Shown: positions 59-13,726 of the stretch, in pieces
Position numbering within the stretch: position 1 is the first letter of the stretch
Layout: every line of letters begins with the position of its first letter
From: a virus
Virus record (IMG/VR): IMGVR_UViG_3300025112_000215
Location: 1 to 22,073 of that record
Length of the DNA stretch: 22,073 nucleotides
Strand: one strand, 5' to 3'
Position numbers and translations under genes: made by a program
Notes under the pieces: generated by a model
What the model saw: the letters and a program-made list of their open reading frames with translations, nothing else
Told to the model about the DNA's origin: nothing
Databases searched by the model: none

Positions 59-125
59 TTGTTGAACAGCTAAATTTGTGTTATAATTACTCTAGTTTGG
101 GGGGATTATAATTTAGCTAATTGAT
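59..125 (+). promoter_or_regulatory. Promoter and G-rich leader element, copy 1, upstream of portal
   Basis: A perfect -10 box TATAAT lies at 82-87 with an extended -10 TG at 79-80. A weak -35-like TTGTTG at 59-64 is 17 bp upstream. Downstream is a run of six G at 99-104, then a second TATAAT at 107-112 inside ATTATAATTTA. The G run starts exactly 27 nt before the portal ATG. The same arrangement (TGnTATAAT, 10-11 nt, GGGGGGAT, ATAATTTA, ATG) recurs at 9459-9505 with the same 27-nt distance, which supports a real phage element over chance. Transcription probably starts a few bases before or at the G run. I read it as a sigma70-type promoter with a conserved 5' leader; a phage-specific polymerase is an alternative. 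Confidence 0.7.
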
Positions 126-3010: not shown

Positions 3011-4171
3011 ATGGCTAATACAACAACAAGCCTAAATCAGACTAAGTTTGTACGAACAGTACAAGCGTTCCGAAACAAAATGTTGGTATCTATGAGATTC
3101 GCAAGAACTCAATTACCAGTCGACGTTTCAAACGGAGATCAAATTGATTTCCCAACTATAACTGACCTTCGAGCCCAAAATTACAGTTCCCAGGTCGACG
3201 CAACAATCGATGATTTTGTGTCTGCTAGCGACACTCTTGACTTGGACAACAGAGAAGTTGTGACTTTCCACATCGACCCTGCACAAGTCAAACAAGCGAC
3301 TTCAGAGTACGAATCTGCTCTAGCTTTCCAAGCTGCATATCAGCTTGCTAACAGAGTTGACCAGACTGTTATCAACGCAGGTATCACTGGGGCTTCAAAC
3401 TCAATTTCAGGTTTCACGACAATCAACTCAACAAACATTCTAAACATGTTTACTGAGGCGACTTCTAACCTATTCAGACAAAACGCTGGACCAGGACGAT
3501 CATTCGCACTTATTGATCCTGAAAGATTTGCACTCCTAGAACAAAACGTAGTTGCTAACGGATTCAACCTTGGCGACACAACTCTAAAAAATGGTTACAC
3601 AGGAGACTATTCTGGATACAATGTACTTGTATCTAACAATCTTCCTTCAAGCCAAACTCTAGGTATGGCTACTAACCCAACAGCGGACGATACGTTCACT
3701 TTATACGGAGTAACATTTACATTCAAAGCAGCACCCGCAGCAGCAGGCGAAATTGATATTGGAGGATCAGCAGCAGCGACAGGAGCAAACATTGTTCTAG
3801 CTATCAATGGTACAGGTACTGGTGACGGTACTGACTACTTTGAACTATCAACTGCTAATAGAAGAAAACTTCAGAACGCTCAATGTTCAGCGGCAGCATG
3901 GGGATCAGACGCTTCAGTTGTTACTGGATTTGGTAAAATTGATGGTGAAGAAACTTTCACTGACGGTACAGATGCTTGGGGTACTGAAACTTCAAGCCTT
4001 CTATTCGGAAGAGTTGGAGCAGTATCTATGGCTATGCAAATGGCGCCAAAGCTATTTGTTCGACCAGAATCTAAACAGGTTGGTGATAACCACATCTTGC
4101 ACCAGCTTTATGGTGACAAAGTCTTCACAAGAGACGCAGACAGACTTATCAAAGTACCTTATAACGTATAA
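3011..4171 (+). CDS. Major capsid protein with an inserted beta-rich domain
   Basis: This 386-residue protein follows the scaffold gene, as expected for the HK97-fold coat protein. The N-terminal part (to about residue 215) resembles P22-like and related coat proteins: an N-terminal helix with RNKMLVSMRFARTQLP, a long spine helix around 92-125 (QVKQATSEYESALAFQAAYQ), then the FALIDPERFALLEQ segment near 165-178. The C-terminal part (about 328-386) runs from LLFGRVGAVSMAMQMAPK to a typical ending with LYGDKVFTRDADRLIKV. Between SNNLP (208-212) and that part lies an Ala/Gly/Thr-rich segment of roughly 110 residues with TFTLYGVTFTFKA, which looks like a surface-exposed insertion domain. The leader contains inverted repeats and no Shine-Dalgarno. 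It is followed after 19 nt by a fibre-like gene. Confidence 0.9.
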   Translation: MANTTTSLNQTKFVRTVQAFRNKMLVSMRFARTQLPVDVSNGDQIDFPTITDLRAQNYSSQVDATIDDFVSASDTLDLDNREVVTFHIDPAQVKQATSEYESALAFQAAYQLANRVDQTVINAGITGASNSISGFTTINSTNILNMFTEATSNLFRQNAGPGRSFALIDPERFALLEQNVVANGFNLGDTTLKNGYTGDYSGYNVLVSNNLPSSQTLGMATNPTADDTFTLYGVTFTFKAAPAAAGEIDIGGSAAATGANIVLAINGTGTGDGTDYFELSTANRRKLQNAQCSAAAWGSDASVVTGFGKIDGEETFTDGTDAWGTETSSLLFGRVGAVSMAMQMAPKLFVRPESKQVGDNHILHQLYGDKVFTRDADRLIKVPYNV

Positions 4172-5562: not shown

Positions 5563-5584
5563 GAGCCCCTCTTCGGAGGGGTTC
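5563..5584 (+). terminator. Strong hairpin with UUCG loop (possible terminator or mRNA-processing hairpin)
   Basis: Bases 5563-5571 pair with 5576-5584 in a 9-bp stem (core CCCCTC/GAGGGG, one G-U wobble) closed by the very stable C(UUCG)G tetraloop, starting 8 nt after the stop codon of the preceding gene. Only two T follow the core stem, so intrinsic termination would be weak. It may slow or partially stop transcription, or protect the upstream mRNA end. The next start codon is 22 nt downstream, so transcription clearly must continue at least in part. Confidence 0.6.
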
Positions 5585-5605
5585 AATGAAGATTAAAACC
5601 TCAAT

Positions 5606-6010
5606 ATGACACAAATAAGAAGTACAAGTAAATTAACGACAATCCTAAACGCTAAAGCAGCTAACGGTGTAGGAGATACATTCGGGGTAACAGAATTCAG
5701 ACATATAGTCGGGTATATTTCAACAGCTAGCAGTGGTGATCTTACGGTCAAAGTCCAGGCTAGTATGGAAGAAGAAGCCCCAGATTTTAGCTCTACGGCG
5801 AGTTCTACTAACGTATGGGACTATATCCATGTTTGGAACTATAACGCAGCTACGGGCATTGCAGGTGATACAGGATTTGTTTATTCAGGAACGGACGCAG
5901 TTGAAAACTTTATGATTAACTTAGACGGTATGCGGTGGGTGAACTTCGAGGTTTCTAGTTATGTTGCGGGTAATGTGACAGTGAAAGTACAAGGATTTAC
6001 TAATTTATAA
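5606..6010 (+). CDS. Small beta-rich structural protein, paralogue A
   Basis: This 134-residue protein has the same length as the protein at 9505-9909, and they align without gaps at about 57 identical positions by my hand count. Shared segments include RS..KL..IL near the start, WDYI (72-75), AGDTG.VY.G.DAV (about 87-100), M.W.NF.V and GNVTVKVQ-like strands near the end. The pattern of alternating hydrophobic residues suggests a beta-sandwich. No catalytic motif, signal peptide or membrane segment is visible. It is followed after 3 nt by the beta-helix protein at 6014, just as paralogue B is followed after 2 nt by another fibre-like gene, so the pair may act as a two-gene unit, for example an adaptor and its fibre. 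The function is inferred. Confidence 0.75.
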   Translation: MTQIRSTSKLTTILNAKAANGVGDTFGVTEFRHIVGYISTASSGDLTVKVQASMEEEAPDFSSTASSTNVWDYIHVWNYNAATGIAGDTGFVYSGTDAVENFMINLDGMRWVNFEVSSYVAGNVTVKVQGFTNL

Positions 6011-9206: not shown

Positions 9207-9404
9207 ATGGCGAACGGCTCAATAGACTACAATTTAGGACACCTAAAGGCTGACATGGATATTGTGAAAGAAGATATTAACGAACTTAAAGGCTCTGTAG
9301 CAGGATTATCAATATGGAGGGTAAGGACGATTGCATTCTTTTCAGGTGTAATTGCAGCAGTCACAACGACAGCTAACGGGATATTATTTTTATTCTTCCA
9401 GTAA
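9207..9404 (+). CDS. Small membrane protein, holin-like (XhlA type)
   Basis: This 65-residue protein has a charged helical N-terminal half with heptad-like spacing (LGHLKADMDIVKEDINELKG) and one hydrophobic segment at about residues 41-64 (TIAFFSGVIAAVTTTANGIL and onward to FLFFQ) at the very C-terminus. This coiled-coil plus C-terminal membrane-anchor plan matches XhlA-type haemolysin/holin accessory proteins and similar small phage lysis proteins. If so, it acts in the inner membrane at lysis. It lies inside the fibre cassette with gaps of 49 nt before and 100 nt after; no endolysin gene is adjacent. An alternative is a small virion membrane-contact protein. The start has the usual A/T-rich leader without Shine-Dalgarno. 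Confidence 0.55.
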   Translation: MANGSIDYNLGHLKADMDIVKEDINELKGSVAGLSIWRVRTIAFFSGVIAAVTTTANGILFLFFQ

Positions 9405-9417
9405 TTTATATCTAACA

Positions 9418-9504
9418 ACCACGTTCAATGTAATTTAATTTATTAAAGCCACGAAACGTGGTATAATATAAAAGAATGGGGGGATATAATTTAATTCTCT
9501 CAAA
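9418..9504 (+). promoter_or_regulatory. Promoter and G-rich leader element, copy 2, with palindromic operator-like site
   Basis: An extended -10 box TGGTATAAT lies at 9459-9467. It is followed by GGGGGG at 9478-9483 and ATATAATTTA at 9484-9493, with the G run starting 27 nt before the ATG at 9505, exactly as at the portal gene. No good -35 is visible. Instead the region before the -10 holds the palindrome CCACG-AAA-CGTGG (9449-9461), which overlaps the TG of the extended -10. A further half-site ACCACGTT (9418-9425) is an 8-bp inverted match to AACGTGGT (9455-9462). TAATTTAATT occurs at 9431-9440 and 9487-9496, and once more at 9184-9193. I infer a regulated internal promoter for the genes from 9505 on. 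Confidence 0.65.
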
Positions 9505-9909
9505 ATGGCTGAAACAAGAAGTGCAACCAAGCTGCAATCAATACTTAGTGCAGCGGGAGCAACGGGGGTGGGTACAGGAGTTAATGTAGCGCCTTATCAA
9601 CATATTTTACTTTCGGTAAGAAGTGACAATTCGGCTAACCTAACGGCTAAGTGCCAAGGGTCAATCGCTAATGAAGAACCTACTTGGGGTTCTGCGGCGG
9701 CAGTGGATAATGACTGGGATTACATAGGTATTCAGTTATTAGACGACGGCACTATCGTAGCTGGTGATACAGGGGTAGTTTACGCAGGATCTGACGCTGT
9801 TCATTATTACATGGTCAACACTGACGCAATGAACTGGATCAACTTTAACGTGACAGCTCGTGCAGCAGGTGATGTAACAATTCAAGTTCGAGCATTTAAC
9901 AACTCTTAA
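9505..9909 (+). CDS. Small beta-rich structural protein, paralogue B
   Basis: This 134-residue protein is a paralogue of the protein at 5606-6010 (same length, gapless alignment with about 57 identities by hand). Conserved parts include RSATKLQSIL-like residues at the N-terminus, DWDYI near 71-75, VAGDTGVVYAGSDAV near 86-100 and MNWINFNV near 109-116. The two genes are well diverged at DNA level, so the duplication is old or one copy was acquired. It is the first gene after promoter element copy 2 and is followed after 2 nt by a fibre-like gene. I infer a virion protein working with its downstream neighbour; no enzymatic motif is present. Confidence 0.75.
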   Translation: MAETRSATKLQSILSAAGATGVGTGVNVAPYQHILLSVRSDNSANLTAKCQGSIANEEPTWGSAAAVDNDWDYIGIQLLDDGTIVAGDTGVVYAGSDAVHYYMVNTDAMNWINFNVTARAAGDVTIQVRAFNNS

Positions 9910-13177: not shown

Positions 13178-13726
13178 ATGGCAGAAATGAAAAAATGCAA
13201 GAAATGTGAAACGGATAAAGCCGTGTCTGAATTCTACTGTAAAGACAAGAAAACTGGACGGATAGATTCTTCTTGCAAGAAATGCCATTATTTTAGTAAA
13301 GACAGAAGCAAGAAATATCCTAAGCCAGCGTTATATATGGTATGGGCTGGCATGAAGGCTCGTTGCGATAATCCGAACAACCCTCGATATAATCGATACG
13401 GTGGTCGCGGCATCACATATTGTAGCGCATGGAAAGATTACAAAGTTTTCGAACAAGATATGCTCAATGACTACAAGAAAGGACTGCAGCTAGACCGTGT
13501 TGATAACGATGGCAATTATTGCCCAGCGAACTGCAAATGGAGCACGCCGCGAGAACAAAGCAACAACAGAAGCGATAATAAATACTTCCGATTTAACGGT
13601 AAAAAACAGACCTTGCCTGCATGGGCGCGTGAACTAGGAGTTAACAGGAGTACCCTAGCGCAGCGATACTATGGGCTTAAATGGCCTATAGAGAAGGTAT
13701 TGACATATAATATAACACACACATAA
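13178..13726 (+). CDS. Free-standing HNH homing endonuclease
   Basis: This 182-residue protein has three parts. At the N-terminus Cys7, Cys10, Cys33 and Cys36 form two CxxC pairs of a zinc-binding finger. Residues 52-130 carry the motif set of a common phage homing endonuclease group: YMVWAGMKARC, RYNRYGGRGITYC (70-82), LDRVDNDGNY (105-114), NCKWSTPREQSNNR (118-131). The C-terminus (about 145-176) has TLPAWARELGVNRSTLAQRY and WPIEKVLTY, the DNA-binding repeat often found at the end of these enzymes. It would nick or cut DNA of related phages lacking the gene, so the gene spreads. It lies between two tail genes with 15 nt before and 1 nt after, with no intron borders visible. Confidence 0.85.
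   Translation: MAEMKKCKKCETDKAVSEFYCKDKKTGRIDSSCKKCHYFSKDRSKKYPKPALYMVWAGMKARCDNPNNPRYNRYGGRGITYCSAWKDYKVFEQDMLNDYKKGLQLDRVDNDGNYCPANCKWSTPREQSNNRSDNKYFRFNGKKQTLPAWARELGVNRSTLAQRYYGLKWPIEKVLTYNITHT

Follow-up and report, generated by a model that had tools for sequence, protein, structure and literature searches.

The window analysed here, which is the whole 22,073-base stretch of the virus record, has a gene order matching a podovirus-like structural module, running from a portal-like gene to a virion protein gene (Table 1). The window and all its close relatives are genome fragments, and the early region of the phage lies outside the window. The second of the two gene starts considered below belongs to a 134-aa gene that has a paralog in the same window. 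At 24 nt upstream of this paralog we observed a CCCCTC-TTCG-GAGGGG hairpin (5566–5605), which is nearly identical in the relative L093, upstream of its position 1601. Besides, a 182-aa ORF (13178–13726) lies amid the tail genes and resembles by eye a zinc-ribbon or HNH-type endonuclease; a Pfam search gave no match for it, and a counterpart is absent at the equivalent place in L093. In another relative, L006, a gene with a Cpn60/GroEL domain (466–1602) sits immediately before the terminase.

Table 1. Features of the two promoter-leader elements and neighboring genes in the window, and layout of the corresponding sites in related phages.
Feature	Position	Strand	Remarks
-35 element TTGTTG, copy 1	59–64	+	17 bp from the -10
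Extended -10 TGTTATAAT, portal promoter (copy 1)	79–87	+	
Predicted transcription start (A), copy 1	94	+	7th base past the -10
G6 run, copy 1	99–104	+	about +6 to +11 of the predicted transcript; 27 nt before ATG
ATAATTTA, copy 1, putative A/T-rich translation-start signal	108–115	+	of a kind seen upstream of many clade genes
Portal-like protein gene, 595 aa	126–1913	+	named from gene order and size; no family match
Scaffold-like gene	2301		structural module
Major head protein	3011–4171		PHROG matches
Surface-like genes			between head protein and adaptor-like gene in the gene order
-35 position TTTATT, copy 2	9439–9444	+	weak, poor match; 17 bp from the -10
Extended -10 TGGTATAAT, copy 2	9459–9467	+	
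Predicted transcription start (G), copy 2	9474	+	
Predicted 5'-terminal RNA hairpin, copy 2	9477–9502	+	UGGGGGGAU (9477–9485) pairs with AUUCUCUCA (9494–9502)
G6 run, copy 2	9478–9483	+	about +5 to +10; 27 nt before ATG
ATAATTTA, copy 2, putative A/T-rich translation-start signal	9486–9493	+	
134-aa gene downstream of copy 2	9505–9909	+	paralog of 5606–6010, 43% identity
SU10-adaptor-like gene	10728		
Tail-tube-like gene	11378		large
Virion protein with M23 peptidase	15834		
Window portal site			TTGTTG-17-TATAAT-11-G6; first G to ATG 27 nt
L004 portal site			TTGTCT-17-TATACT-9-G5; first G to ATG 20 nt
L005 portal site			TTGTCC-17-TAAAAT-9-G5; first G to ATG 25 nt
Window copy 2 site			TTTATT-17-TATAAT-10-G6; first G to ATG 27 nt
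L023 second-gene site			TTCATT-17-TATAAT-11-G7; first G to ATG 29 nt
L006 portal site			TTGTTT-18-TATAAT; G run absent

The same composite element stands in front of the portal gene and in front of the 134-aa gene. Copy 1 consists of TGTTATAAT (79–87), 11 nt, GGGGGG (99–104), ATTATAATTTA (105–115) and the ATG at 126, while copy 2 consists of TGGTATAAT (9459–9467), 10 nt, GGGGGG (9478–9483), ATATAATTTA (9484–9493) and the ATG at 9505. The doubled order of TGnTATAAT, 10–11 nt, GGGGGG, ATAATTTA and ATG that the original prediction had described at 79–128 and 9459–9507 is confirmed in the letters. An inverted repeat, CCACG-AAA-CGTGG (9449–9461), abuts the copy-2 promoter and overlaps its TGG; the equivalent in L023 is CTACA-GAA-TGTGG, so the dyad is largely retained. 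It is a possible operator.

Scanning both strands of the window gave two exact TGNTATAAT sites, copy 1 and copy 2, and a search for further copies of the element with up to 3 mismatches found none. By itself, the number of TGNTATAAT sites is ordinary (2 observed vs 1.1 expected from 400 dinucleotide shuffles). The combination TGNTATAAT-N8-12-G5 was found twice vs 0.005 expected from 400 dinucleotide shuffles, and the full TATAAT-N8-12-G5-N0-5-TAATTTA pattern, also found twice, appeared in none of the 400 shuffles; these patterns were defined after both copies were known, which makes the enrichment figures somewhat flattering. G5 runs are common on their own (26 on the coding strand in 22 kb). 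Hence, neither the G run nor TATAAT would mean much alone; what stands out is their combination and where it lies. A consensus promoter scan of the window listed neither copy, because it required a stronger -35.

Regarding related phages, IMG/VR holds two near-identical fragments (L002 and L003), two relatives with portal identities of 74% (L004) and 76% (L005) to the window, and three at around 40% (L006, L022 and L102). One further relative, L023, carries the second gene, that of copy 2, at 72% identity. The same arrangement was present at the portal genes of L004 (TGTTATACT-9-GGGGG) and L005 (TGGTAAAAT-9-GGGGG), and at the second gene of L023 (TGGTATAAT-11-GGGGGGG). The proposed promoter and leader at structural genes therefore recurs at orthologous genes of these three phages, and a motif search of the window and its relatives yielded copies in the relatives but no further ones in the window. 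Across the window and the relatives, the run has 5–7 Gs and lies 9–11 nt past the -10 (9, 9, 10, 11 and 11 nt over the five sites) and 20–29 nt before the ATG, at about +4 to +11 of the predicted transcript. The 27-nt distance from G run to ATG, originally thought to be fixed, holds for both window copies but becomes 29, 25 and 20 nt in the relatives.

The extended -10 is also kept in L006, at about 40% portal identity and with no G run, which makes the -10 more broadly common than the G run. No G-run promoter was seen upstream of the equivalent genes in the distant relatives L022, L102–L108, L089/G006 and L123. A G run is likewise missing from the other extended -10-like sites that we found before genes of the clade (G002 4662; L093 15515, 17193 and 17319), so it appears tied to structural-gene promoters. 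From this alignment of sites we conclude that the extended -10 is more widely spread than the G run, which among the sites compared is confined to the close clade.

A TGn directly precedes the -10 in all six sites, and the seventh base past the -10 is a purine in all six. A TTGTnn -35 at 17 bp is present in the three portal sites of the window, L004 and L005, and is poor at copy 2 and in L023. On this basis, both copies are probably bacterial-type promoters with G-run leaders, read by the host RNA polymerase; the sigma-70 rules applied here come from well-studied bacteria. As read from the sequence, the composite is made up of three parts, namely an extended -10 promoter, a G run and an A/T-rich start signal. 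The extended -10 TGnTATAAT would recruit the host RNA polymerase carrying its principal sigma factor, of the sigma-70 type, assisted at the portal promoter by the TTGTnn -35 at 17 bp, and initiation would occur at the purine 7 nt past the -10. The resulting leader would be about 31–32 nt long in the window and 23–34 nt over all sites, with 2–5 nt, G5-7, an A/T-rich TTTAA stretch and the ATG in this order, and the TTTAA stretch would load the ribosome independently of Shine-Dalgarno pairing. In this way the structural genes would get two transcript starts, one before portal, scaffold and capsid, and another before the second surface-protein cassette and the tail genes. What we observe directly are the sequence elements, their conservation at orthologous genes and the enrichment of TTTAA/TTAAC before genes; where transcription starts, its dependence on sigma-70 and its late timing are inferred.

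At gene starts we found TTAAC upstream of 15 of 57 genes (2.5 expected) and TTTAA upstream of 15 of 57 (4.6 expected), mostly 10–20 nt before the ATG, while only four of the 57 had a Shine-Dalgarno-like sequence. In the distant relative G006 the motif precedes 15 of 39 genes (2.6 expected), with no Shine-Dalgarno at all. TTAAC/TTTAA and a near absence of Shine-Dalgarno sequences were likewise noticed at the gene starts of the window, L004, L094, L093 and G006. A/T-rich signals at about -10 to -20 are known in groups with few Shine-Dalgarno genes (PMC5397173). The ATAATTTA block had been seen as part of a special late signal; with TTTAA/TTAAC lying 10–20 nt before many genes of the clade, that role is not supported, and the block is best read as the general A/T-rich TTTAA-type start signal of the phage group. 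TTAAC is not enriched in the small MAG carrying a related terminase, so it gives no help in naming the host.

The G run lies downstream of the predicted starts, as expected from the proposal that it belongs to the transcribed leader. In copy 2 the leader is predicted to form a 5' hairpin in which the G run pairs with UUCUCUC (-8.5 kcal/mol, z -3.0), and the L023 leader shows the same fold through its G run (-10.8 kcal/mol, z -4.8). The portal leader of the window shows no fold (z +1.3), and the L004 and L005 portal leaders are almost without one. One leader fold common to copy 1 and copy 2 was thus rejected, and the idea of a shared leader RNA signal, taken as a common structure, falls with it: copy 2 folds and copy 1 does not. 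Besides, the major head protein gene of the window has a GGGGG at 2979–2983, 32 nt before its ATG and soon after the scaffold stop codon, and that of L004 has a GGGGGG at 9391–9396, 31 nt before the ATG. No promoter was found near the head-protein-gene G run in either phage, and the run folds into a hairpin in both, by different pairings. Since the hairpin is absent from the portal leader and the capsid G run sits in other hairpins, no one mechanism fits all cases.

One could argue that the G run is instead where a phage-encoded single-subunit RNA polymerase initiates, in the manner of T7. T7-type polymerases initiate at GGG. The two copies ahead of structural operons and the position of the G run downstream of a TAAT-containing block agree with this idea, and the window and its close relatives are incomplete genomes that may carry such a gene elsewhere. 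However, the -10 and the G run are separated by anything from 9 to 11 nt, with different intervening bases, the -35/-10/+1 layout suits sigma-70, and L006 keeps the extended -10 without any G run. Scanning the fragments revealed no such polymerase: among the large proteins of the relatives examined there are a primase and a helicase and no RNA polymerase, and an RNA_pol family search of the fragments, which had no working positive control, did not find one. The original suggestion that a phage polymerase might start on the G run is therefore very unlikely to be right in view of the variable spacing, the host-type layout and this outcome. Even less probable is that copy 2 arose by recent duplication of copy 1, or resembles it by chance, and that the shared parts have no function. 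There are just two copies in the window and both adjoin similar-looking A/T-rich start regions, but they sit at orthologous genes of diverged phages in which the surrounding bases have changed, and the shuffles make chance unlikely.

Two further readings assign the G run to other signals. Together with a downstream TATAAT-like stretch, it might form an early-transcribed pause signal in the style of lambdoid late promoters; loading of lambda Q takes place at a promoter-proximal pause that depends on sigma (PMC7171158). A second TATAAT does lie about +12 to +19 in both window copies, with near matches in L023 (AATAAT) and L005 (TAAAAT). We nonetheless consider this unlikely: a good second -10-like element is missing from L004; with the gene beginning at about +32, no terminator-bearing leader remains to be read through; and the TTTAA translation signal, which shares bases with the second TATAAT, accounts for it with no need of a pause. 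The G run could also serve translation, as a remote site for ribosome pairing or standby that is present as well before the promoterless capsid gene. The capsid gene G runs, 32 nt (window) and 31 nt (L004) from the ATG with no promoter nearby, point this way, and a G5 can pair with the CCUCC of 16S rRNA with one wobble. Still, the run ends 15–27 nt before the ATG, far past the usual pairing distance, in a phage group that otherwise makes little use of Shine-Dalgarno pairing; it is absent from most genes, and at the capsid gene it folds into different hairpins, all of which leave this option doubtful.

Returning to host-read promoters with G-run leaders, the weakest step is the role of the run itself, which most likely acts in the transcript or during early elongation rather than as a polymerase recognition site. 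We favor this RNA-level or early-elongation role because the run sits at a variable distance from the -10 and the fragments scanned yielded no polymerase. The run may protect the 5' end, where copy 2 would carry its 5'-terminal hairpin, or affect promoter escape. More tentatively, the G5-7 run might be a clade-specific control point for late genes, restricted to structural-gene promoters and working, for example, as a site for a phage or host factor, through control of promoter escape or slippage, or through 5'-end protection.

To see how far the motif extends, we scanned IMG/VR and obtained 16 stretches for GGGGGGAN{0,1}TATAATTTA and 66 for a looser pattern. None of the matches outside the phage and its relatives resembles a promoter before an ATG; they lie in unrelated contexts, so the motif is not a widespread phage element. 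Annotated phages gave no match to the window by megablast or to the portal by tblastn, a portal profile search of bacterial genomes gave none either, and our literature searches found no report of the motif. A terminase profile matched L112, a MAG of about 0.8 Mb, and L113, an Arthrobacter contig, and the G-run promoter motif is absent from both. The terminase in L112 (10001–11173) is 70% identical to that of the phage group and lies inside this bacterial MAG of about 0.8 Mb; its presence there hints at a small-genome host.

Taken as a whole, the analysis maps promoters and operons of the structural genes in a form that can be tested, for a phage group without a close relative in the phage record collection searched. 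It suggests that the phage relies on host transcription and on translation starts of a non-Shine-Dalgarno type. Should the G run prove functional, it would offer an easy way of recognizing late promoters in this phage group.

In comparison with known systems, the sites resemble T7-type promoters in having a G run at a possible start and more than one copy before structural genes. Promoters of phage polymerases are contiguous and nearly invariant, whereas the phage sites have neither a fixed distance nor a contiguous 20-bp consensus. In lambdoid late promoters, sigma rebinds a -10-like element at the pause and the Q protein is loaded. What recalls lambdoid PR' is a -10-like sequence that, in both window copies and partly in L023 and L005, falls among the first predicted transcribed bases of a putative late promoter; the phage sites differ in lacking a long leader and terminator, and the second -10-like sequence is not kept in L004. 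As in the 5' stabilizing stem-loops of the ompA type, the predicted hairpin of copy 2 and L023 begins 2–4 nt from the predicted 5' end; copy 1, unlike these, has no hairpin, and that of copy 2 and L023 ends 2–3 nt before the ATG, where, if formed as modelled, it could hinder translation. Extended -10 (TGn) promoters of the sigma-70 type serve many phages dependent on host RNA polymerase, and in this class a -35 hexamer at 16–18 bp is optional. The phage sites match it in TGnTATAAT, in the -35-like hexamer at 17 bp (portal) and in the purine 7 nt past the -10, and differ from it in the conserved G5-7 run among the first predicted transcribed bases. Promoters of this kind are already known; what is unusual in the phage sites is the G run conserved in their leaders.
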